From contig NZ_FMYV01000002.1 in NCBI RefSeq assembly GCF_900102615.1, positions 124,001-188,000 on the forward strand: a DNA stretch of 64,000 nt, read 5' to 3'. This document shows positions 12,231 through 23,968 of this stretch, in pieces; within the stretch, counting starts at the first letter, position 1, and each line of letters opens with the position of its first letter. Position numbers and translations under genes: made by a program. This DNA comes from Geotoga petraea. GTDB lineage: Bacteria; Thermotogota; Thermotogae; Petrotogales; Petrotogaceae. The notes beneath the pieces are model-generated. The model had not been told where the DNA came from, did not search any database, and saw only the letters and a program-made list of their open reading frames with translations.

Positions 12231-13244
12231 GTGAACGTTGGAATAATGGGAATGGGAATTTATATTCCAGATAATTATATTACATCAGATGAAATTGCTG
12301 AAAAAACTGGTATACCAGAATGGGTTATAAGAGAAAAATTTGGAGTTACAAAAAAACCTATTCCTGGTCAAAAAGATACAACAAGTTATATGGGAATTCA
12401 AGCAGCAAAAGAAGCCATTGAAGATGCTGGAATCAATCCTGAAGAAATCGACATAGTAATTTGGAATGGAGCACAGCATAAAGACTATCCTTGTTGGTTA
12501 GCGAGTTTGAAAGTTGCCGATGAAATAGGTGCAAAAAATGCTTGGGGTTTTGACATGGAAGCAATGTGTGGATCTATGATGGCTGGTATGGAGACAGCAA
12601 AATCACTATTATTGGGAAATAAAAAGTATAAAACTGCTTTATTAGTTAGTGGTTATAGAAATGGAGATTTAATAGATTACAATGTACCAGAAACATCTTT
12701 TATGTTTGATCTTGGAGCTGGCGGTGCAGCTATGGTTCTTAAAAAAGATTATAATAAGAACGTAATTTTAGGGACTGCATTTAAAGGAGACGGTGATTTT
12801 TCTGAAGATTGTGTGGTACCAGTTGGAGGAACAAAAAATTGGCCAATGAAGCCTGAAGATACAGACAAAATGCATTTTGTTATAGATGATGTTGACTCTT
12901 TTAAACAAAAACTTGGTGAAAGAACAATGCCTAACTTCTACTCTGTAATCAGAGAAGCTTTGGCAGAATCTGATAAAACCGATAAAGATATCGACTATTT
13001 AGCTATTTTGCATTTCAAAAAATCTTCTCATGATGCAGTTGTTAAAGAATTTAACCTAAATGAAGATCAAACTACTTATCTTCAAAATTATGGTCATATT
13101 GGACAGAACGATCAAATTTTATCATTGAAAATAGCACTTGAAGAAGGAAGACTTCATGATGGAGATAATGTAGTAATGGTTGGAGCAGGAATAGGTTTTG
13201 TTTGGGCTGCAGCTCATGTTCATTGGGGAGAATATAAAGGTTAA
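12231..13244 (+). CDS. KASIII-like 3-oxoacyl synthase (thiolase superfamily)
   Basis: 337 residues, FabH length. Would condense an acyl thioester with a second acyl unit, or catalyse acyl exchange. N-terminal GIMGMGIYIPDNYITSDEIA and EWVIREKFGV are FabH-like; the nucleophile is Cys113 (EAMCGSMMAG); His261 (ILHFKKSS) matches FabH His244. The third position, normally Asn in GNTSAAS, reads YGHIGQND, putting His289 in its place. GTG start with SD AAAGAGGTGAT. First gene of a ten-gene operon of CoA enzymes and a Liv importer rather than of fatty acid synthesis genes, so a catabolic or branch-specific role is likelier than housekeeping FabH. Confidence 0.85.
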   Translation: MNVGIMGMGIYIPDNYITSDEIAEKTGIPEWVIREKFGVTKKPIPGQKDTTSYMGIQAAKEAIEDAGINPEEIDIVIWNGAQHKDYPCWLASLKVADEIGAKNAWGFDMEAMCGSMMAGMETAKSLLLGNKKYKTALLVSGYRNGDLIDYNVPETSFMFDLGAGGAAMVLKKDYNKNVILGTAFKGDGDFSEDCVVPVGGTKNWPMKPEDTDKMHFVIDDVDSFKQKLGERTMPNFYSVIREALAESDKTDKDIDYLAILHFKKSSHDAVVKEFNLNEDQTTYLQNYGHIGQNDQILSLKIALEEGRLHDGDNVVMVGAGIGFVWAAAHVHWGEYKG

Positions 13245-13276: not shown

Positions 13277-14017
13277 ATGAATAGAATGAAAGGTAAAGTT
13301 TGTGTAGTTACAGGTGGAGCAAGAGGAATTGGTTTATCAATAGTGACTAAAATGGCAAATGAAGAGGCTAAAGTAGTTTATGCAATTGATATGAATGGAG
13401 AAGCTTTAAAAGAAGTGGAGAAAGAATTTTCTAATGTAAAAGGATATGTTCTTGATGTTACTGATAGAAATTCAATTAAAGAATTTGTAGAAAATGTTAA
13501 AAATGAATATGGAAAAATAGATGTGTTGGTAAATAATGCAGGAGTTACAAGAGATGCATTGATTCAAAAAATGTCGGAAGAAGATTGGGATTTTGTTTTA
13601 AACGTTAATCTTAAAGGTGTTTTCAACATGACTCAAGCCATTGCACCAATAATGATTGAAAATGGTGAAGGGAACATTGTTAATATTTCTTCTATAGTTG
13701 GAGAAAGAGGAAATATTGGACAAACAAATTACGCAGCAACAAAAGGCGGAGTTATTTCAATGACATATACTTGGGCTAAAGAATTTGCAAGAAAAGGTGC
13801 AAATGTTAGAGTAAATGCTGTAGCTCCTGGATTTATAAAAACTCCTATGACAGAAAAAATGCCTGAAAAAGTATTAGACGCTATTACTAAAAAAGTAACT
13901 TTAGGTAGAATGGGAGAATCATCAGAAGTAGCAGATGCAGTATTTTTCTTAGCTTCAGATGAAGCGTCATATATTACAGGCCATGTATTAAGCGTAAACG
14001 GAGGAACAATATTATAA
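13277..14017 (+). CDS. SDR-family oxidoreductase (FabG/3-hydroxyacyl dehydrogenase-like)
   Basis: NAD(P)-dependent short-chain dehydrogenase, 246 residues. Nucleotide motif TGGARGIG, structural NNAG, catalytic Ser in NISSIVGE, YAATK (YxxxK) and C-terminal GHVLSVNGG are all present. The sequence is FabG-like. Beside a CoA-transferase and a thiolase it could oxidise a 3-hydroxyacyl-CoA or free 3-hydroxybutyrate to the 3-oxo compound; this role is inferred from context. SD AGGAGG. The acidic end of beta-2 (YAIDMNG) suggests NAD preference. Confidence 0.9.
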   Translation: MNRMKGKVCVVTGGARGIGLSIVTKMANEEAKVVYAIDMNGEALKEVEKEFSNVKGYVLDVTDRNSIKEFVENVKNEYGKIDVLVNNAGVTRDALIQKMSEEDWDFVLNVNLKGVFNMTQAIAPIMIENGEGNIVNISSIVGERGNIGQTNYAATKGGVISMTYTWAKEFARKGANVRVNAVAPGFIKTPMTEKMPEKVLDAITKKVTLGRMGESSEVADAVFFLASDEASYITGHVLSVNGGTIL

Positions 14018-14037: not shown

Positions 14038-15354
14038 ATGTGGAAAAACGTATATAACGAAAAATTAGAGTCAATTGAAGAAGCAATATTATCACTACCA
14101 AAAACAGTTACTGTAGTCGTAGGGTTAGCAGCTTCAGAAGCACAAGGCTTTTTAAGTAATGTTCATAAATATAAAGACCATTTTGATTCATTAAGAGTTT
14201 TAACATGTTTAGATATGAAAGAATATCCTTTTTTCGAAAATAAAGAGTACGAAGGAAAGATGGTTAATCACTCATGGTTTTTTAGCCCTCCAACAAGGAA
14301 AGCAAGGGAAAATGGGCTTAAAACAGTAGACTATATTCCAAATAATCTTCACATGGCTGGAACAGATAAATTAGTTGCCGAGAAGAATGAAGGCAGAACA
14401 TTGGTTTTTTGGGGAACTGTTTCACCAATGCATGAAGATAATGGTTTTTTCAGTTTAGGAATTTCTAATGTTTATGAAATGGAAGTTTTTGAACAAGCCG
14501 ATAGAGTTATACTTGAGGTTAATGATCAAATGCCTTTTCTCCATGGTGAAACAGGAATACACATAAACCAAGCAGATGCTGTAGTTGAAAACAGTTGGGA
14601 AGTTCCTACACTACCTGCTGTGGAACCGACAGAAACAGAAGAAACAATTGCTCAATACATTGCTGATTTAGTTGAAGATGGTTCTACTATTCAAATTGGT
14701 ATAGGTGGTATACCTAATGCTGTTGCAAAACTTTTGGACAATAAAAAAGATCTTGGAGTTCATACAGAAATGTTTACAGAATCTATGATAGATCTCTTTG
14801 AATGCGGAGCAATTAACAACACCAAAAAGACTCTTTGGAGAGGTAAATCAGTTTGCGCTTTTGCTTTAGGTTCTAAGAGAATGTACAAGTGGTTAAATGA
14901 TAATCCGGGTGTATGGTTTATGAAAGGTCATTATGTTAATGATCCTTATGTAATAGCTCAAAATGATAACATGATTTCAATAAATACTGCTATTTCTGTT
15001 GATTTACAAGGACAAGTAGTTAGTGAAGCAATAGGGGCTAGACAATTTTCTGGAACTGGTGGACAACTTGACACGCATAGAGGAGCTATAAAAAGTAAAA
15101 ATGGAAAAGGTATAATTGCTCTAAGATCAACAGCTAAAAATGGAAAAATTTCTACAATCACCGTTGCTCACCCAAAAGGTGCTACAATATCAGTGCCAAG
15201 ACATGACGTAGACTATGTAGTAACAGAATTTGGGGTAGCACATTTAAGAGGTAAAAGTTTATCTGAAAGAGTTAAATTATTGATTAGCATTGCTCATCCG
15301 AATTACAGAGAACAATTGAAACGAGAAGCAAAGGAAATTGGTTACATATTATAA
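14038..15354 (+). CDS. Acetyl-CoA hydrolase/CoA-transferase family protein (Cat/4-hydroxybutyrate type)
   Basis: 438 residues, typical for this family, which moves CoA between acetyl-CoA and butyrate, 4-hydroxybutyrate or similar acids. Motifs: IQIGIGGIPNAVA (CoA-binding glycine loop), HTEMFTES with the likely catalytic Glu244, FSGTGGQLD, and the C-terminal VTEFGVAHLRGKS. It probably activates the acid delivered by the adjacent importer. SD GAGGGG, ATG at 14038. The thiolase gene begins 13 bases after its stop, with its SD overlapping the stop region. Confidence 0.88.
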   Translation: MWKNVYNEKLESIEEAILSLPKTVTVVVGLAASEAQGFLSNVHKYKDHFDSLRVLTCLDMKEYPFFENKEYEGKMVNHSWFFSPPTRKARENGLKTVDYIPNNLHMAGTDKLVAEKNEGRTLVFWGTVSPMHEDNGFFSLGISNVYEMEVFEQADRVILEVNDQMPFLHGETGIHINQADAVVENSWEVPTLPAVEPTETEETIAQYIADLVEDGSTIQIGIGGIPNAVAKLLDNKKDLGVHTEMFTESMIDLFECGAINNTKKTLWRGKSVCAFALGSKRMYKWLNDNPGVWFMKGHYVNDPYVIAQNDNMISINTAISVDLQGQVVSEAIGARQFSGTGGQLDTHRGAIKSKNGKGIIALRSTAKNGKISTITVAHPKGATISVPRHDVDYVVTEFGVAHLRGKSLSERVKLLISIAHPNYREQLKREAKEIGYIL

Positions 15355-15367
15355 AGGAGGAATTGCT

Positions 15368-16576
15368 TTGAGAAAAGTATACATAGTTGCCGCCAAAAGA
15401 ACTGCTATAGGAACATTTGGTGGAACACTAAAAAATGAACCAGCCACAAAATTAGGGGCTCATGTTGTAAAAACAATTTTAGAAGAAGCTAATGTAAAAC
15501 CAGAATATGTAGATAAAACAATAGTTGGAAATGTTTTACAAGCAGGCCAAGGAATGGGGCCAGGAAGGCAAGTAGCTTTATATGCTGGAATTCCAGAAAG
15601 CAAACCAGCTTATGCAGTAAACATGCTTTGCGGAAGTGGGATGAAATCTGTAATGATTGGAGCTACAGATATTAAAGTAGGAGATGCAGAAATAGTAGTT
15701 GCTGCAGGAATGGAGAGCATGTCTCAAGCTCCACTGTTAATCGATGCTAAAAATAGATTTGGAAGTAAATTTGGAAATCAAAAAATATATGACCATATGA
15801 TTTTAGACGGATTAACAGATGTATTTAACAACTACCATATGGGTGTGACTGCTGAAAACATTGCTGAAAAACATGGTATAACCAGAGAAGAACAAGATGA
15901 GTTTGCAGTTAATTCTCAAAATAGAGCCCAAAAATCTATTGAAGAAGGAAGATTTAAAAACGAAATAATTCCTTATGAAATAAAAACAAGAAAAGGTACA
16001 ATTGTTTTTGATACTGATGAACATCCAAGATTCAATGCAACAGTTGAAGGTTTAGGGAAATTAAGACCAGCATTTAAAAAAGATGGCTCTGTTACAGCTG
16101 GTAACGCTTCTGGTATAAATGATGGGGCAAGTGGTATAATATTAGCATCAGAAGATGCTGTTGAAAAATACAATTTAAAACCTATAGCTGAGTTAATTGC
16201 GTATGATGAAGCTGGTGTAGATCCTGCATACATGGGATTAGGGCCAGTACCAGCAATTAAAAATGTTCTAAGTAAAAACAATATTTCTATAGATGATATA
16301 GAATTAATAGAGTTAAACGAAGCTTTTGCTTCACAATCACTGGGAGTCATCAAAGAGCTTGGTGATGAATACGGAAAATCAAAAGATTGGTTTATAGAAA
16401 GAACTAATGTAAATGGAGGAGCTATTGCATTAGGGCATCCAATCGGAGCTTCTGGAAATAGAATTATAGTAACTTTATTGCACGAAATGAAGAAACAAGG
16501 AAAAGAAATTGGATTGGCTTCTCTCTGTATCGGGGGAGGCATGGGTACTGCAGTTGTAGTACGTAATATAAAATAA
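15368..16576 (+). CDS. Acetyl-CoA acetyltransferase (thiolase II type)
   Basis: Cleaves acetoacetyl-CoA, or another 3-oxoacyl-CoA, with CoA to acetyl-CoA, or runs in reverse. About 402 residues. Motifs: RTAIGTFGG at the start, nucleophile Cys in NMLCGSGMKS, NEAFASQ, the His motif GHPIGASGNRI and the second Cys in LCIGGGMG. I chose the TTG at 15368, 10 bases after AAAGGAGG; an earlier in-frame start at 15338 lies inside the CoA-transferase and gives a non-family N-terminus. Between the CoA-transferase and the Liv importer, it is likely the last step of degradation. Confidence 0.93.
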   Translation: MRKVYIVAAKRTAIGTFGGTLKNEPATKLGAHVVKTILEEANVKPEYVDKTIVGNVLQAGQGMGPGRQVALYAGIPESKPAYAVNMLCGSGMKSVMIGATDIKVGDAEIVVAAGMESMSQAPLLIDAKNRFGSKFGNQKIYDHMILDGLTDVFNNYHMGVTAENIAEKHGITREEQDEFAVNSQNRAQKSIEEGRFKNEIIPYEIKTRKGTIVFDTDEHPRFNATVEGLGKLRPAFKKDGSVTAGNASGINDGASGIILASEDAVEKYNLKPIAELIAYDEAGVDPAYMGLGPVPAIKNVLSKNNISIDDIELIELNEAFASQSLGVIKELGDEYGKSKDWFIERTNVNGGAIALGHPIGASGNRIIVTLLHEMKKQGKEIGLASLCIGGGMGTAVVVRNIK

Positions 16577-16588
16577 AGGGGTGATCTT

Positions 16589-17758
16589 ATGAAAAAAGTA
16601 TTAACACTTTTGGTAGCTTTACTTATGGTAGTAGGGCTTTTTGCCGAAGTTGGAGTAACAGATGACGAAATATTGATAGGTTCTTTCCAAGCTTTGTCTG
16701 GCCCTATTTCTTCTATTGGACAACCAATGACAAAAGGTATGCAAGCATACTTTGATTGGGTAAACGACAATGGAGGAGTAAATGGAAGAAAAATTAACTT
16801 GTTAGTTGCAGATGACCAATTTAATCCAGCAAAAACAACAGTTGAAGTAAAAAGATTAGTAGAAAGCGATAAAGTATTTTCTATTGTTGGTGGCTTAGGA
16901 ACTCCAGGTGTATTAGCTGTTATGGATTACTTGAATTCAAATAAAGTTCCGTTTGTTTATCAAGGTTCAGGTACATCATTATTGAGTTTTCCACCAAAAG
17001 AATTCGTTTTCCCAGTACAACCAAACTACACAGTAGAAGGAAACATCGTTGCCAACTATTTTGCTGACGTTGGTTACACAAAGATTGCAATTGTTTACAG
17101 AAATGCTGATGATGGTAAAGAATTCAGAGAAGCTGCACAAGAATTATTAGAATCAAGAGGGATAAAAGCAACATACATTCCTATTAATCCTTCAGCAGAA
17201 GATTTCTCTGCAGAAGTAACAAGATTGTTAACAAATAGACCTGAAGCAATTGGAGTTATGCTTTATGGAACACAAGCTCCTAACTTCATAAAACAAGCAA
17301 AACAATATGGTTTAAGAGATGTTGAATACGTTACTTCTTATGCTAATGCAAGTGTAACTTTCATTGATATGTTAGGAAATGCCGCTGAAGGTGTTAGATC
17401 AATGGCATGGGTTGATGTAGACTTTACTGATCCTGAAACACCAGCATTAAAAATTTATGGTGAATACAACAATGGAGAAATCCCTAATGCATACGCTGTT
17501 GCTGGTTTAATCGCTGCTGAAACATTTACAGAAGCAGTAAGAAGAGCTGGAGACAACTTAACTAGAGAATCATTGGTAAATGCATTAGAAACCTTCGATG
17601 ATTGGCAAGGAGATATTGCTTCTGGAATAACTTATTACGACTTTGAAGGGTCAAACAAAGATATCTCAAGAATTGGTAAAGATTCTATGTACATACTGGA
17701 AGTTAAAGACGGTGTATTTGAGAGATTTACTGATTGGCTTTACTACATGGAATATTAA
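16589..17758 (+). CDS. Liv-type ABC transporter substrate-binding protein
   Basis: Periplasmic binding protein of the branched-chain amino acid/amide-type (HAAT) family, 389 residues. Signal peptide MKKVLTLLVALLMVVGLFAE, then the type I fold with the typical VTDDEILIGSFQALSGPISSIG start and GGVNGRKI. Liv-family receptors also bind aromatic acids, amides, urea and other carboxylates, and the acyl-CoA gene neighbours suggest a carboxylate or ester ligand rather than an amino acid. SD AGGGGTGAT. Followed by a hairpin terminator at 17774 that probably sets a high receptor-to-transporter ratio. Confidence 0.93.
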   Translation: MKKVLTLLVALLMVVGLFAEVGVTDDEILIGSFQALSGPISSIGQPMTKGMQAYFDWVNDNGGVNGRKINLLVADDQFNPAKTTVEVKRLVESDKVFSIVGGLGTPGVLAVMDYLNSNKVPFVYQGSGTSLLSFPPKEFVFPVQPNYTVEGNIVANYFADVGYTKIAIVYRNADDGKEFREAAQELLESRGIKATYIPINPSAEDFSAEVTRLLTNRPEAIGVMLYGTQAPNFIKQAKQYGLRDVEYVTSYANASVTFIDMLGNAAEGVRSMAWVDVDFTDPETPALKIYGEYNNGEIPNAYAVAGLIAAETFTEAVRRAGDNLTRESLVNALETFDDWQGDIASGITYYDFEGSNKDISRIGKDSMYILEVKDGVFERFTDWLYYMEY

Positions 17759-17773
17759 CAATATTTAAATAAT

Positions 17774-17800
17774 GCGGGGAATAAATTTCCCCGCTTTTTT
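17774..17800 (+). terminator. Intra-operon, probably leaky terminator
   Basis: GCGGGGAA (17774-17781) pairs with TTCCCCGC (17787-17794), loop of five, then six T. It lies between the receptor and ATPase genes; partial read-through would give excess binding protein, a common ABC operon arrangement. Confidence 0.8.
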
Positions 17801-17818
17801 AAAGGGGTGTAATAATAG

Positions 17819-18574
17819 ATGTTAGAAGTTAAAAATGTTACGGTATCCTTTGGTGGTTTAATAGCTGTAAAAGATATGACAATGAATGTGAAAAAAGGAA
17901 TTATTCATTCGCTTATAGGACCCAATGGAGCGGGTAAAACAACTCTGTTTAACGTAATTACAAGAGTTATCCAACCTGTTAAGGGAAGTGTGTCATATGA
18001 AGAAAATTCTCTTATGGATTTAAGGCCAGAACAAATTATATATAAAGGAATTAGTAGAACATTCCAAAATCTTCAGTTGTTTAGCGGAATGAACGTTTAT
18101 GATAATATCTTGTCCGGATATATACATAATTATGACAAAAATATATTTTACCTTTTTTCAAAAAATAGATCACATTTTGAATCAGAAGCTAGAGAAAGAA
18201 TACTGGAAATTTCTGAGTTATTACAAATAAAGAATAGGTTGAGTTCTTATCCAGCATCGTTATCTTATGGAATTTTAAAAAGAGTAGAAATAGCTAGAGC
18301 TATAGTATCCAATCCAAAATTATTGTTGTTTGATGAGCCTGCTGCAGGGCTTAATCATAACGAGACTTCTGAAATAAGAGATATTATGAGACTTTTAAAA
18401 AATCAAGGAAAAACAATTTTGTTGGTTGAACATGATATGAATTTGGTTATGAAAATTTCAGATAGAATTACTGTAATGAGTTTCGGAGAAAAAATTGCTG
18501 AAGGAACTCCTGAAGAGGTTGGAAATAATGAAGAAGTAATAAAAGTTTATTTGGGGGAGAGTGAAAATGCTTAA
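17819..18574 (+). CDS. livG: Liv-type ABC transporter ATP-binding protein (LivG-like)
   Basis: Cytosolic ATPase of the importer, 251 residues. Walker A GPNGAGKTT, LivG-type RTFQNLQLF Q-loop, signature LSYGILKRVEIARA (the LSYG variant is usual for LivG), Walker B LLLFDEPAAGLN, and H-loop LVEHDMNLV. AAAGGGGTG SD. Overlaps the second ATPase gene, indicating coupled translation. The liv name marks the family; the substrate is probably not leucine here. Confidence 0.92.
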   Translation: MLEVKNVTVSFGGLIAVKDMTMNVKKGIIHSLIGPNGAGKTTLFNVITRVIQPVKGSVSYEENSLMDLRPEQIIYKGISRTFQNLQLFSGMNVYDNILSGYIHNYDKNIFYLFSKNRSHFESEARERILEISELLQIKNRLSSYPASLSYGILKRVEIARAIVSNPKLLLFDEPAAGLNHNETSEIRDIMRLLKNQGKTILLVEHDMNLVMKISDRITVMSFGEKIAEGTPEEVGNNEEVIKVYLGESENA

Positions 18575-19259
18575 AGTAGAGAATTTAAAAGTAAATTACG
18601 GACACGTTAGCGCTGTGAAAGATATTTCCTTTAAAATAGATAAAGGTGAAATTGTTAGCATTCTTGGTGCTAATGGAGCTGGAAAAACATCTACTCTTTT
18701 TGGCACTATGGGAATAGTAAAATCTACATCAAAAATAAATTTTCAAGGAGAAGATTTGAGTAAGGCTTCTACTGAAGAAAAAGTAAAAAAAGGGCTTGTT
18801 TTAGCTCCTGAAGACAGAAGAGTTTTTCCTCAATTATCGGTAGAAGAGAATTTAAAATTGGGAAGTTTTGCCAGAGGTAATGAGAAAGAAAACTTTGAAA
18901 AGGTTTATGACCTATTTCCAGTTTTAAAAGAAAGAAAGAGACAACAAGCTGGTTCGTTATCTGGAGGAGAACAACAAATGCTTGCAGTTGGAAGGGCGTT
19001 AATGAGCTCTCCAGAGATTTTGATGTTAGACGAACCTTCTTTGGGATTAGCTCCTCTAATAACTGACGAGATATTTGATGTTTTAGTTCAGTTAAAGGAA
19101 ACAGGAGTTGGAATTTTACTTGTTGAACAAAATGCTTTAAGATCACTAAAAATAAGTGATAGAGCATATATATTAGAGATTGGAAGAATAGCAATTCAAG
19201 GTGATGCTAAAGATTTATTGAATGATGAATCAGTTAAAAAAGCGTATTTAGGAATATAG
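18567..19259 (+). CDS. livF: Liv-type ABC transporter ATP-binding protein (LivF-like)
   Basis: Second ATPase of the importer, about 230 residues. Walker A GANGAGKTS, APEDRRVFPQLSVEENL (LivF hallmark), signature LSGGEQQMLAVGRAL, Walker B ILMLDEPSLGLAP, and LVEQNA in place of the H-loop His, which is usual in LivF. I prefer ATG 18567, spaced correctly from GGGGGAG; a GTG at 18561 is too close to that SD. Overlaps livG by eight bases. Confidence 0.92.
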   Translation: MLKVENLKVNYGHVSAVKDISFKIDKGEIVSILGANGAGKTSTLFGTMGIVKSTSKINFQGEDLSKASTEEKVKKGLVLAPEDRRVFPQLSVEENLKLGSFARGNEKENFEKVYDLFPVLKERKRQQAGSLSGGEQQMLAVGRALMSSPEILMLDEPSLGLAPLITDEIFDVLVQLKETGVGILLVEQNALRSLKISDRAYILEIGRIAIQGDAKDLLNDESVKKAYLGI

Positions 19260-19269
19260 GGGTGATTTG

Positions 19270-20151
19270 ATGGCATTTATACAAAATGTATTATTAGGAA
19301 TACCTCAGGGTGCTCTTTATGGATTGATGGCTTTTGGTATTGCTTTAATATTTAAAACAGTGTTTGTAATGAATTTTGCCCATGGATCATCTGGTATGAT
19401 GGCAGCATTTTTCGCATTTTCAGTATATTCATGGACACAAAATTTGTTCATAGCAATAATTGGAGCTTTAATATTTGGATTTATCTTAGCTCAATTAATA
19501 GAAAGATTTTTAATGAGACCAGTTAAACATCTTTCTCATGCTGCTATGATCATAATAACTCTCGGTTTGTTGATGATTTTCGAAGGTCTTTCCATAATAA
19601 TTTGGGGAACTGATTACCAACAATTTCCGCAAATTGCAGAAGGTGCCCCATTTCTAATGAATTTAGGAGATAATTTATTAGTTTTACCTCTAAACGATTT
19701 GGTTAATATGGTAATTGCCTTATCAGTTACTGTTGCATTGGCATTGTTCCTTAAATTTACTAAGTTAGGAACAGCTATAAGAGCGAGATCACAGGATGAA
19801 GTTGGAGCTTCTGTAGTTGGTATTAATATAAATAAAGTAGATGCATTAGTTTGGGGAATTGGTATTTCATTAGCAGCATTGGTTGCTGTTTTAGCTGCAC
19901 CTAGAACTTATGTTCATCCACAGATGATGACTAATTATCAACTATATGGTTTCACAGCAGGTGTATTAGGTGGTTTTTATAACCTATTTGGTGCTATTGC
20001 TGGTGGACTTTTGCTTGGTATTATGGAAAAATTAGTTGGATATTACATATCACCAGACTATCAATTATCTATTATCCTAATATTAATTATAGTAGTGCTT
20101 GTTGTTAAGCCTACAGGCCTCTTTGGATCTAAATTTGAAGGGAGAGTCTGA
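19270..20151 (+). CDS. livH: Liv-type ABC transporter permease (LivH-like)
   Basis: Inner-membrane permease, 293 residues, about eight hydrophobic segments. Visible LivH features: GIPQGALYGLMAFGIALIF at the start, NFAHGSSGMMAAF, the ATPase-coupling stretch TKLGTAIRARSQDEVGASVVGIN, and GGLLLGIMEKLVG near the end. ATG 19270 follows GGGGTGATTTG; a TTG three bases earlier is less likely. Three bases separate it from the fused permease gene. Confidence 0.93.
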   Translation: MAFIQNVLLGIPQGALYGLMAFGIALIFKTVFVMNFAHGSSGMMAAFFAFSVYSWTQNLFIAIIGALIFGFILAQLIERFLMRPVKHLSHAAMIIITLGLLMIFEGLSIIIWGTDYQQFPQIAEGAPFLMNLGDNLLVLPLNDLVNMVIALSVTVALALFLKFTKLGTAIRARSQDEVGASVVGININKVDALVWGIGISLAALVAVLAAPRTYVHPQMMTNYQLYGFTAGVLGGFYNLFGAIAGGLLLGIMEKLVGYYISPDYQLSIILILIIVVLVVKPTGLFGSKFEGRV

Positions 20152-20153
20152 GT

Positions 20154-21860
20154 ATGAAAAAATCAATACTTTTATTAATAGCTGGACTTTTATTGGGAGT
20201 AGTATTTATAAATCAATCATTTTTCTTGATGATATTATCTACAGTGTTAGTATGGGGTATAGCTTCAATGGGATTAAATATATTGATGGGTTATACTGGT
20301 CAGATATCTATAGGTCATGCTGCATTTATGGCCATAGGAGCTTATACAACGTCTTATTTATCAATAAACTTTGGTACACCTTTTATTTTAAACTTAATTA
20401 TAGCTATAGTTCTTTCTGCTGTCCTTGGTGTAATAATATCATTACCAGCCTTAAGACTGAAAGGTTTTTATTTGGCTATAGCTACAATGGCTTTTGGTAT
20501 AACAGTAGAGCAATTAATAGCTTCTTTTGATATTTTTGGAGGTCATATAGGGCTTAGAAATATTCCTGATATTCTGCCAAATGATTTTTGGATGTATATA
20601 TTAAATTTAGCTTTTTATGTAGTTCTTTCTTTTATAGCAACAAAATTAATAAAGTCTCCGAATGGTATTTCATACCAAATGATTAGAGATAGTGAATATG
20701 CATCAAGATCTTTTGGTAAGAGAATTTCTTTTGTTAAACTCGAAGCTTTTGTTGTTTCAGCGGTTTATGGAGGAATTGCAGGTACTTTATACGCGCATAC
20801 AATTGGTTATATAGGTCCAAGTGATTTTGGATTAAATGCTTCTCTTAATATTTTAGCAATGATTGTTATTGGCGGCTTAGCTTCTGTTGATGGTGGATTA
20901 GTTGGTGCTGTTATAATAACAGGTATGCCTTTCTTATTCTCAAGAACTGATATACCTATGTCCATAATTTTTGGTTCATTGTTAATTATATTTGTTTTGT
21001 TCTTCCCAAGAGGATTAATATATGGAATAATGATGGGATATTACAAATACTTTGAAAGACCGTTTGTAGCTCTAAGCAGAATTTTGTGGAAGAGAAAGTC
21101 TTTTCCAACTGGAAAAGTTAATGTTAAAGGTAAAGATCTTTACTATAATGTTAAAGGAGAAGGCGAACCTGTTATAATGATACATGGGAACTATGGATCG
21201 CATAGATGGTTTGATAAAGTAAATGATTTAGAAGGATATAAGACTTACGCCTTAGATCTTCCTAATTTTGGGCATTCAGATAGAATAGAAGAAATAAACA
21301 TCGATACTTACGCAGAATATGTTAAAGAATTTATGGAAAAATTAAATATTGAGAGTGCTTATATAGTTGCTCATTCCTTAGGAGGAGCTGTTGCTCAATC
21401 ACTCGCATATAATAATCCAGATATGGTTAAAAAATTAGTTTTAGTTGATTCAGCACCTATTGATGGGTTAAATACTCCTGAAGAAAACTATAACGGATTG
21501 CAATTACTAAAAACGAGTAAAACACTTTTAAAAACATCCTTAAAATCTATTATGCCCACAGCTGAAGACAGAAAAATGCTGAATATATTAACAAATGAAG
21601 GCTTATTAATGAATCCAAAATGTTTTACAGAAAATGCAAGGGCATTAGAATCGTATGATTATTCTGATTTAGCTAAAAAATTTAAAAATCCTGTGCTATT
21701 CTTTGTTGGTAAAAAAGATTTATTAATAACAAGGGACATGGCAGAAAAAACATTAGAAGTTCTAAATGGCGAATTAAAATATTTTGACCATGTAGGGCAT
21801 TCAATAATAATAGAAGATCCAGAATTATTTAAAAAGGAATTAACTAGTTTTTTAGCTTAA
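20154..21860 (+). CDS. LivM-like ABC permease fused to a C-terminal alpha/beta hydrolase
   Basis: 568 residues in one uninterrupted frame. Residues 1 to about 300 are a full LivM permease (GLNILMGYTGQISIGHAAFMAIGAY, ALRLKGFYLAIATMAFG, IGGLASVDGGLVGA, FFPRGLIYG). After a basic linker, residues about 322-568 form a complete alpha/beta hydrolase: HGNYGS (His344), nucleophile elbow AHSLGGA with Ser408, acid Asp522 (GKKDLL), His549 (HVGHS). LivM C-termini face the cytosol, so the hydrolase should sit at the inner mouth of the channel. This predicts import coupled to hydrolysis of an ester, lactone or thioester. The domain resembles the separate hydrolase at 23047-23826. Confidence 0.93.
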   Translation: MKKSILLLIAGLLLGVVFINQSFFLMILSTVLVWGIASMGLNILMGYTGQISIGHAAFMAIGAYTTSYLSINFGTPFILNLIIAIVLSAVLGVIISLPALRLKGFYLAIATMAFGITVEQLIASFDIFGGHIGLRNIPDILPNDFWMYILNLAFYVVLSFIATKLIKSPNGISYQMIRDSEYASRSFGKRISFVKLEAFVVSAVYGGIAGTLYAHTIGYIGPSDFGLNASLNILAMIVIGGLASVDGGLVGAVIITGMPFLFSRTDIPMSIIFGSLLIIFVLFFPRGLIYGIMMGYYKYFERPFVALSRILWKRKSFPTGKVNVKGKDLYYNVKGEGEPVIMIHGNYGSHRWFDKVNDLEGYKTYALDLPNFGHSDRIEEINIDTYAEYVKEFMEKLNIESAYIVAHSLGGAVAQSLAYNNPDMVKKLVLVDSAPIDGLNTPEENYNGLQLLKTSKTLLKTSLKSIMPTAEDRKMLNILTNEGLLMNPKCFTENARALESYDYSDLAKKFKNPVLFFVGKKDLLITRDMAEKTLEVLNGELKYFDHVGHSIIIEDPELFKKELTSFLA

Positions 21861-21874
21861 AAGGAGCCATTTAA

Positions 21875-22999
21875 ATGTCAAAGAGAAGAACTAAGACTTT
21901 AGAAAAGTTGATAGATACCTCGAGAGATTTATTTTCCTCAAAATGGTTTGAAACTGTATCAGTAGCTGAAATTTGTAGAGAAGCAGGAGTGTCTAATGGA
22001 GTTTTTTATAGATATTTTAAAAATAAAAAAGGAATTTTCGAATATCAACTAAATGAATTAATAAAATTTTTTGATAGAGAATTTAATTCAATAAGAGGTG
22101 TTACTATAGAAGATAGATTGAATAAATTCTTAGATATTGTAATTGAAAGTTCTTTAAAGTATAAAAAGCAAATTACCATCTATAGAGAAGCTCAGTATAG
22201 ATTTCCTGAATATGAAAAAAGATTGAGAAGAATCTACATAACAGGCATTTCAAGAATTTTTAATAGGGATATTTCAGAAGCAGAATATTTATATATTGCT
22301 GGTGCAGCCAGATTTATTAATATTAGAAACCTTTTTAATGGAAAAGAATATCAGAAAGAACAATTAAAAGATATAATATTGAATGGAATATTTTATAATG
22401 ATGAGGTAAATTTTGAAAGCGTTTTTAATAAAGAATTAGTAAATGTAGATAAAAAAGAGAGAGACGATACAAGAAACAGATTATTGAACTCTGGAATTCA
22501 GTTGTTTGGAAGTAAGGGTTATTATAATGTCAATATTTACGATATAGTTAAAGAAGCTGGATATGCAATTGGAACATTTTATATTTACTTTAATTCAAAA
22601 GAAGAATTTTTATCCACTATAGTTAAAAAAATTAGTAAATTAACGAGAAGATTCATTACTAAAAATTCAGAATTTTCTAAAAATCGACTTGAAAGAGAGT
22701 TAAGAGGTATCTATCTATTTTTGAAGTTTTTCTCTGAAAACAAGAATTACTATGAAATTGTAAGAGAAGCAGAATTTGTGGTAAATAAAGACGTTAGAGA
22801 TTATTATGAAAGTTTTGAAAAAGGTTATTTGAAAAATTTGGTAAATATAAAATATGATGCTGATATTCTTGTATCAAATATTTTGATGGGTATATCTCAT
22901 TACATGGGTATTGAAAAATTTTTCTTACAAAAAATAGATGATGAAAAAATGATTATTAAAGAACTTAAAATATATATGACAAATGGAATTAAAAAATAA
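21875..22999 (+). CDS. Double TetR-family regulator (two complete HTH domains in one chain)
   Basis: 374 residues, about twice a normal TetR protein. The first DNA-binding domain is at about residues 8-54 (FETVSVAEICREAGVSNGVFYRYFKNKKGIF) and a second at about 196-240 (YYNVNIYDIVKEAGYAIGTFYIYFNSKEEF), each followed by an all-alpha ligand/dimer domain of about 120-140 residues. No frameshift or stop lies between them. Last gene of the Liv/CoA operon, 14 bases after the fused permease, so probably an autoregulatory ligand sensor for the pathway, with an acyl-CoA or the imported compound as possible effector. AAAGGAG SD. Confidence 0.9.
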   Translation: MSKRRTKTLEKLIDTSRDLFSSKWFETVSVAEICREAGVSNGVFYRYFKNKKGIFEYQLNELIKFFDREFNSIRGVTIEDRLNKFLDIVIESSLKYKKQITIYREAQYRFPEYEKRLRRIYITGISRIFNRDISEAEYLYIAGAARFINIRNLFNGKEYQKEQLKDIILNGIFYNDEVNFESVFNKELVNVDKKERDDTRNRLLNSGIQLFGSKGYYNVNIYDIVKEAGYAIGTFYIYFNSKEEFLSTIVKKISKLTRRFITKNSEFSKNRLERELRGIYLFLKFFSENKNYYEIVREAEFVVNKDVRDYYESFEKGYLKNLVNIKYDADILVSNILMGISHYMGIEKFFLQKIDDEKMIIKELKIYMTNGIKK

Positions 23000-23046: not shown

Positions 23047-23826
23047 TTACAAAAAATCATTTATTATTTCCATGAAATCGTTAAGTTTTTCGAAAAATAG
23101 TGCATGTCCAGTTCCGTTTAATTTTATCAAAGTGGAGTTCTCAATTTTTTCATGCATTTCCATCATATGACTGTGAGGAGTTAAGATATCTTCTTCACCA
23201 GATATAAAAAGAACTTCTTTATCGATCTTGGATATTTTATCTCTAACATCATAATCGGCGTTTGAACATGCTAACCTATATAATCCATCAAACCATGGTT
23301 TTGTTAGGGTCTCTTTAAACATTTTTCTTCGATTTAAAAGCCATTCCAAATTAGTATCATAAAAAGGTCTTGAATAAATAAAGGGAAGAGCTAAATCAAA
23401 AAATTTTTCACCATCATACGATCTAGCTGCAATTTTCCAAACTTCTCCAACTGCTTGAAGATAGTTATCAATATAGTCAGTTGCATTTGGTAAAATCATC
23501 CTATTTACTCTTTCAGGATATTTTAAAACAAATAACAAAGCTACTTGTGAGCCATAAGAAACACCTAATAAATTTACTTTATCAATTTTCAAATAATCCA
23601 AGAGTTTCTTTAAATCTTCTACATGAACATCAATAGTATATCCTTCTTCTAACCTTGCGGATTGCCCTTGATCTCTCATATCATACGTGATAATTTGGTA
23701 TCCTTCTTTAAATTTAGGGACATGATCTTTCCAGCTTAAAGCACTCATCATGATACCGTTCAAAAGAATCAATGGTTCTCCTTCACCGTGAACTTCATAA
23801 TGCATTCCAAGATCTTCAAAAATCAA
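23047..23826 (-). CDS. Alpha/beta hydrolase (lactonase/esterase-like)
   Basis: About 260 residues, cytosolic. HYEVHGEGEPLILLNGI, nucleophile elbow GVSYGSQ, acid in ISGEEDILTP, His in GTGHALFFE: a full triad of the 3-oxoadipate enol-lactonase/haloperoxidase-like group. I chose TTG 23826, correctly spaced from GAGAGGTGAT; the GTG at 23835 overlaps that SD. It faces the Liv/CoA operon and shares its terminator. Its start resembles the hydrolase fused to the permease (VKGEGEPV against VHGEGEPL), so the two may act on related substrates. Confidence 0.85.
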   Translation of the reverse strand: MIFEDLGMHYEVHGEGEPLILLNGIMMSALSWKDHVPKFKEGYQIITYDMRDQGQSARLEEGYTIDVHVEDLKKLLDYLKIDKVNLLGVSYGSQVALLFVLKYPERVNRMILPNATDYIDNYLQAVGEVWKIAARSYDGEKFFDLALPFIYSRPFYDTNLEWLLNRRKMFKETLTKPWFDGLYRLACSNADYDVRDKISKIDKEVLFISGEEDILTPHSHMMEMHEKIENSTLIKLNGTGHALFFEKLNDFMEIINDFL

Positions 23827-23968
23827 CTGAATCACCTCTCATTGTATTCTATATTAATTATAACACTTTTTTTGTATAAAAATAATAGCAATAAGGGGTA
23901 AATTTATCGTTTTAATAACATTTATTTGGATAAAATACTTAAAATTAGGATTTCTTATAAAAATCATC

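Follow-up and report, generated by a model that had tools for sequence, protein, structure and literature searches.

To our knowledge, few ABC importers have an enzyme joined to their membrane subunit. The LivM and UrtC permeases of the HAAT importers end shortly past their last helix. Another point of comparison is the intracellular short-chain PHA depolymerases (NF050089; PhaZ, 8ynv). An ABC importer that does carry a fused domain acting on its cargo after import is IrtAB of mycobacteria, in which that domain controls the reduction of the cargo iron and is needed for uptake of one form of the cargo (PMC10246721).

Here we analyzed a 64,000-nucleotide stretch of the Geotoga petraea genome, hereafter, the window, in which a LivM-type permease continues in frame into a hydrolase. 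The encoded protein resembles the LivM and UrtC permeases over its whole permease domain and shares with their importers the LivH, LivG, LivF and substrate-binding protein (SBP) genes of its operon, but it adds a 250-residue hydrolase where those permeases stop. The hydrolase has PhaZ as its best match in both sequence and fold, with the catalytic triads aligned; however, it is only 23–24% identical to PhaZ, scores far below the family cut-off and is fused to a transporter, and PhaC_N is missing from all 41 genomes searched. The likeness to IrtAB, which for the window protein we put forward as a proposal, does not extend to ancestry: IrtAB is not homologous, and has an exporter-fold transporter, an N-terminal FAD domain and nucleotide domains in the same chains. 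A literature search, with most subscription papers outside its reach, returned no description of the LivM-hydrolase architecture.

Architecture of the fusion protein

The gene is a single frame of 568 codons (20154–21860, + strand), with an ATG start and no internal stops. It encodes a LivM-type permease domain (residues 1–285; 20154–21008), matched by Pfam BPD_transp_2 at residues 25–262 (E 2e-33), a basic helical linker of 33 residues (286–318; 21009–21107), and an alpha/beta hydrolase domain of about 250 residues (319–568; 21108–21857), matched by Pfam Abhydrolase_1 at residues 339–556 (E 4e-27). The open frame and the two Pfam domains bear out the claim of the initial annotation that a complete LivM permease and a complete hydrolase share one frame. 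That annotation had also singled out the interval between 21040 and 21120 as the place where a stop would mark two genes joined by error; none is present, and the fusion stands.

The predicted catalytic residues are likewise those named at the outset: Ser408 (codon TCC, 21375–21377, in the motif AHSLGG), Asp522 (GAT, 21717–21719) and His549 (CAT, 21798–21800). All three, together with an HGN motif, are invariant in the 27 fused and the 5 split homologues examined, among which mean pairwise identity is 52% for the permease and 41% for the hydrolase. The hydrolase fold and the Ser-Asp-His triad of the Abhydrolase_1 family are recovered by Pfam, AlphaFold2, Foldseek and alignment alike, and the domain is apparently a catalytic serine hydrolase.

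An AlphaFold2 model built from an alignment of 20 orthologues, which describes the folds of the domains rather than their mutual orientation, contains two well-folded domains (mean pLDDT 89.8, pTM 0.70). Ten hydrophobic helices precede the linker, which itself forms helices at residues 288–300 and 302–315. Across all 27 fusions the linker is 29–36 residues long, with a mean identity of 33%. Lysine and arginine residues average 7.4 in the linker and 4.0 in the loop at residues 168–190, and together these two segments hold most of the positive charge. We take the loop to be the coupling-helix region, through which transporters of this fold touch their ATPases. Because the helix count from this loop and the charge of loop and linker agree, the C-terminus that bears the hydrolase is predicted to lie on the cytosolic side, where the initial annotation had also placed it.

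Distribution and history in the Thermotogota

Liv-type importers that bear an apparently catalytic domain by fusion are found phylum-wide in the Thermotogota, in half of the genomes. A search for LivM-plus-hydrolase architectures, as the initial annotation had proposed, showed that 52 of the 103 Thermotogota genomes, representing 8 families and 23 genera, encode the two domains as a single frame (the count includes six proteins that lack one end, mostly at contig ends). The fusion was absent from the 449 genomes of other phyla, where one of the searches scored the three top candidates of each genome. The fusion recurs within the family and order of the window organism at 48–64% identity, and it is kept in distant relatives as well as close ones, so that the loss from close relatives considered in the annotation does not apply; conservation across 8 families also rules out chance neighbours in one frame. 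No plasmid record had one place covering 80% of the fusion protein, and a rare-peptide scan of genome contigs from the single sequence led to one relative, a Thermosipho MAG. Outside the Thermotogota, the nearest LivM orthologues are those in the phyla of genomes G138 and G263; they stop near residue 300 and belong to an operon of the same kind that has no hydrolase of the fused type.

Split versions exist within the Thermotogota. In one genus, g21, LivM and hydrolase are separate adjoining genes and the triad is intact; in another, g11, a free hydrolase with its triad occurs at a locus without a LivM of the fused type. Damaged copies were also seen: in the fusion gene of G057 the reading frame is interrupted within the hydrolase part (locus L084, 9568–11773), and that of G082 is decayed (L093, 7557–9015).

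Separate trees of the permease and hydrolase domains both recover the families. In the domain trees, the split hydrolases of g11 cluster with fused genera of family f2, and the split hydrolases and LivMs of g21 with a fused genus of family f5, in each case with strong support. Since the domain trees follow the families and the split versions nest beside fused ones, the data fit one old fusion, whose parts would later have come apart in g21, while g11 would have kept the hydrolase alone. Low resolution at the deepest forks leaves room for an ancestral state that was unfused.

Operon context and a probable substrate class

The importer genes lie directly upstream on the same strand and are all conserved neighbours: an SBP (16589–17758; Peripla_BP_6, E 3e-62), LivG-type and LivF-type ATPases (17819–18574 and 18561–19259), each with ABC ATPase motifs in its translation, and the partner permease, of LivH type (19267–20151; Pfam BPD_transp_2). 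With the BPD_transp_2 permease of the fusion, this set at 16589–20151 identifies a HAAT, or Liv-type, importer. The permease scores below the curated cut-offs for both LivM and UrtC, which leaves room for a cargo other than amino acids or urea; the binding protein is also below its cut-off. The solved structures related to the SBP are remote, many of them without a name, and because they do not fix the ligand we dropped the attempt to name the cargo from this protein. A phmmer search of the PDB with the permease alone matched nothing but repeat proteins, at a chance-like level. A strong terminator-like hairpin (GCGGGGAATAAATTTCCCCGC followed by a T-run) lies at 17774–17794, after the SBP gene and ahead of that for LivG; it is likely an attenuator, which would give SBP in excess. 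Additionally, the SBPs of unfused operons in two other phyla (L098, 12738–14309; L099, 6480–8096) carry some 150 additional residues at the N-terminal end.

Farther upstream, also on the + strand, are a KASIII-like enzyme (12231–13244; a conserved neighbour, related by phmmer to solved KASIII enzymes), an SDR dehydrogenase of the FabG/acetoacetyl-CoA reductase type (13277–14017; profile matches), a CoA-transferase of the 4-hydroxybutyrate CoA-transferase family (14038–15354; profile matches), whose nearest solved structures are named 4-hydroxybutyrate CoA-transferase, and a thiolase (15338–16576; Thiolase_N and Thiolase_C). Downstream are a tandem TetR-type regulator with two TetR_N domains by Pfam (21875–22999, + strand) and Hyd2, a second, stand-alone alpha/beta hydrolase by Pfam (23047–23835, − strand), which recurs in the locus and forms a clade separate from the fused hydrolases. 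The whole set, from the KASIII-like gene to Hyd2, is kept across families with rearrangements, and the linkage to the CoA-transferase, noted at first in the window operon, holds across families together with that to the SDR and thiolase.

Two members of the set vary or extend beyond it. The tandem TetR regulator is conserved with the operon not only across the Thermotogota but in two other phyla. In some families a second KASIII-like type, 21–25% identical to that of the window, is present in place of the first or alongside it (L047, 14153–15136; L085, 13212–14195; L088–L092, L094 and L095); inspected by eye, this type seems to have other residues at the His and Asn positions of the active site.

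Both the profile searches and Foldseek (8ynv, E 1.4e-15) place the hydrolase domain nearest to PhaZ of Bacillus thuringiensis, with esterases and a lactonase close behind. The window protein scores 116 bits against the intracellular PHA depolymerase model NF050089, far below its cut-off of 300 bits, and the model is hit at E ≤ 1e-10 by every one of 20 orthologues. A role in PHA storage was rejected on the absence of PhaC_N from the 41 genomes searched. An extracellular Esterase_PHB partner was also rejected: there is none in the genome of the window, and elsewhere the matches are patchy and mostly weak (18 of 41 genomes, 17 above the cut-off). With an intracellular PHB depolymerase as the nearest solved enzyme, and with genes for a 4-hydroxybutyrate-type CoA-transferase, an SDR and a thiolase in the operon, the substrate is suggested to be a hydroxyacid ester, most likely a short ester or oligo-ester of the 3- or 4-hydroxyacyl type.

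A second Liv cassette (B), not orthologous to the fusion-bearing cassette (A), occurs in the same locus in some genomes of family f1 (L036, 821–5553; L038, 14062–18731), in family f3 and in genus g11 (L048, L049 and L096), and cassette B also lies at L047 (3563–8116), L085 (2626–7172) and L094 (2418–6966). The SBPs of cassette B are 66–94% identical among themselves and with those of g11, against 21–37%, in partial alignments, with the SBPs of cassette A. In g11 the locus holds no cassette but B, with the freed hydrolase next to it. In five g11 genomes the hydrolase frame starts as a hydrophobic leader, which exceeds the other five reading frames there in hydrophobicity (2.4–3.2 vs at most 2.2); in two more a similar leader lies farther upstream, and one g11 genome is without it. 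Just ahead of the hydrolase core is an ATG with a well-placed Shine-Dalgarno sequence, which leaves open an internal start downstream of the leader, and codon-position counts in the leader are even, with no sign of purifying selection. Given this internal start and the even codon-position change, the g11 hydrolase probably, though not certainly, carries an export signal. If export is real, the substrate would be a nutrient met outside the cell, and the same chemistry may take place before import too.

Proposed function of the tethered hydrolase

We favor the reading, to which we assign a probability of about 0.55, that the LivM subunit of this importer bears a serine hydrolase at its cytosolic C-terminus that cleaves an imported ester or lactone. 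The SBP would capture an organic acid containing an ester or lactone, and LivHM-GF would carry it inward; the tethered hydrolase would then cut it at the membrane to a hydroxyacid. Gene order suggests that the neighbouring CoA-transferase would activate this acid, which the SDR and thiolase could convert to acetyl-CoA. By keeping the enzyme at the point of entry, the tether would make uptake one-way. Cassette A may serve ester or lactone import with cleavage on arrival, and B uptake of the free acid. If export in g11 is real, the leader of the g11 hydrolase, in its cassette-B setting, is our strongest indication that the fused enzyme works on cargo brought in by the importer.

Although we infer that import and cleavage best explain the locus, both for the activity of the domain and for cleavage of the transported solute, several observations count against this reading. 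Split forms exist, and in other phyla the orthologous importers do without the hydrolase; it is hard to see what the KASIII-like gene would contribute to the suggested pathway; and the PhaZ likeness is weak, while the SBP relatives leave the ligand unfixed. Judging from the split forms, the fusion is not essential, and since the triad stays intact where the genes are split (g21) or the hydrolase stands alone (g11), tight physical channelling is not indispensable.

These same split forms feed the strongest rival, in which an ordinary pathway enzyme acting on a cytosolic intermediate was joined to LivM by loss of a stop codon, the tether having no role in transport. Intact triads in the persisting split forms and the maintenance of a second free hydrolase in the same locus agree with it, as does a property of the linkers. 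An in-frame ATG with a good Shine-Dalgarno site lies in the linker, shortly ahead of the hydrolase core, in 7 of 27 fusions (L003, L005, L017, L022, L023, L051 and L097, from families f1, f2, f4 and f5 and the Thermosipho MAG), the window gene not among them, and might release a free enzyme. Such sites are 7.5-fold more frequent there than elsewhere in the genes (Fisher p 0.00016, with no correction for relatedness); AGG-encoded basic residues may be their source, and some relatives may make the fused protein plus a free hydrolase. However, the fusion and its near-fixed linker length are kept in 23 genera, and the probably exported g11 homologue argues for an external substrate, which together leave this rival doubtful.

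It is improbable that the hydrolase fold is instead a non-enzymatic, ligand-sensing domain that gates the transporter. Some alpha/beta hydrolase proteins are receptors, KAI2 and DAD2 are among the Foldseek matches, and the domain sits at the predicted cytosolic face; yet the triad and HGN motif are invariant, and the triad is retained in the untethered, free forms of g21 and g11. We give slightly less credence to action on a membrane or lipid-linked ester with the permease as a mere anchor. The linker beside the membrane is basic and partly amphipathic, and a membrane phospholipase A (6i8w) is among the Foldseek matches, but the anchor is always one same importer subunit, in an operon for acyl-CoA breakdown, and the free forms of g21 have no anchor. 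A sequencing or assembly error that joined two genes, to which only the broken or split copies of a few relatives (G057, G082) and nothing in the window itself would lend color, is ruled out for practical purposes by recurrence of the same fusion in many independent assemblies, several of them single-contig genomes.

Returning to import with cleavage, a more ambitious form of this reading is tentative: the protein could represent a new class of SBP-dependent ABC importer, in which cargo would be hydrolysed at the channel exit, uptake of an ester or oligo-ester would be irreversible and the acid would pass straight to the CoA-transferase, with some relatives also making a free hydrolase from an internal start. 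The fusion points to a nutrient class of the Thermotogota, probably hydroxyacid esters, for which we found no published account. With its triad intact, it is a clean system for asking whether transport is physically coupled to the first step of catabolism, and the natural split versions provide controls for that question.
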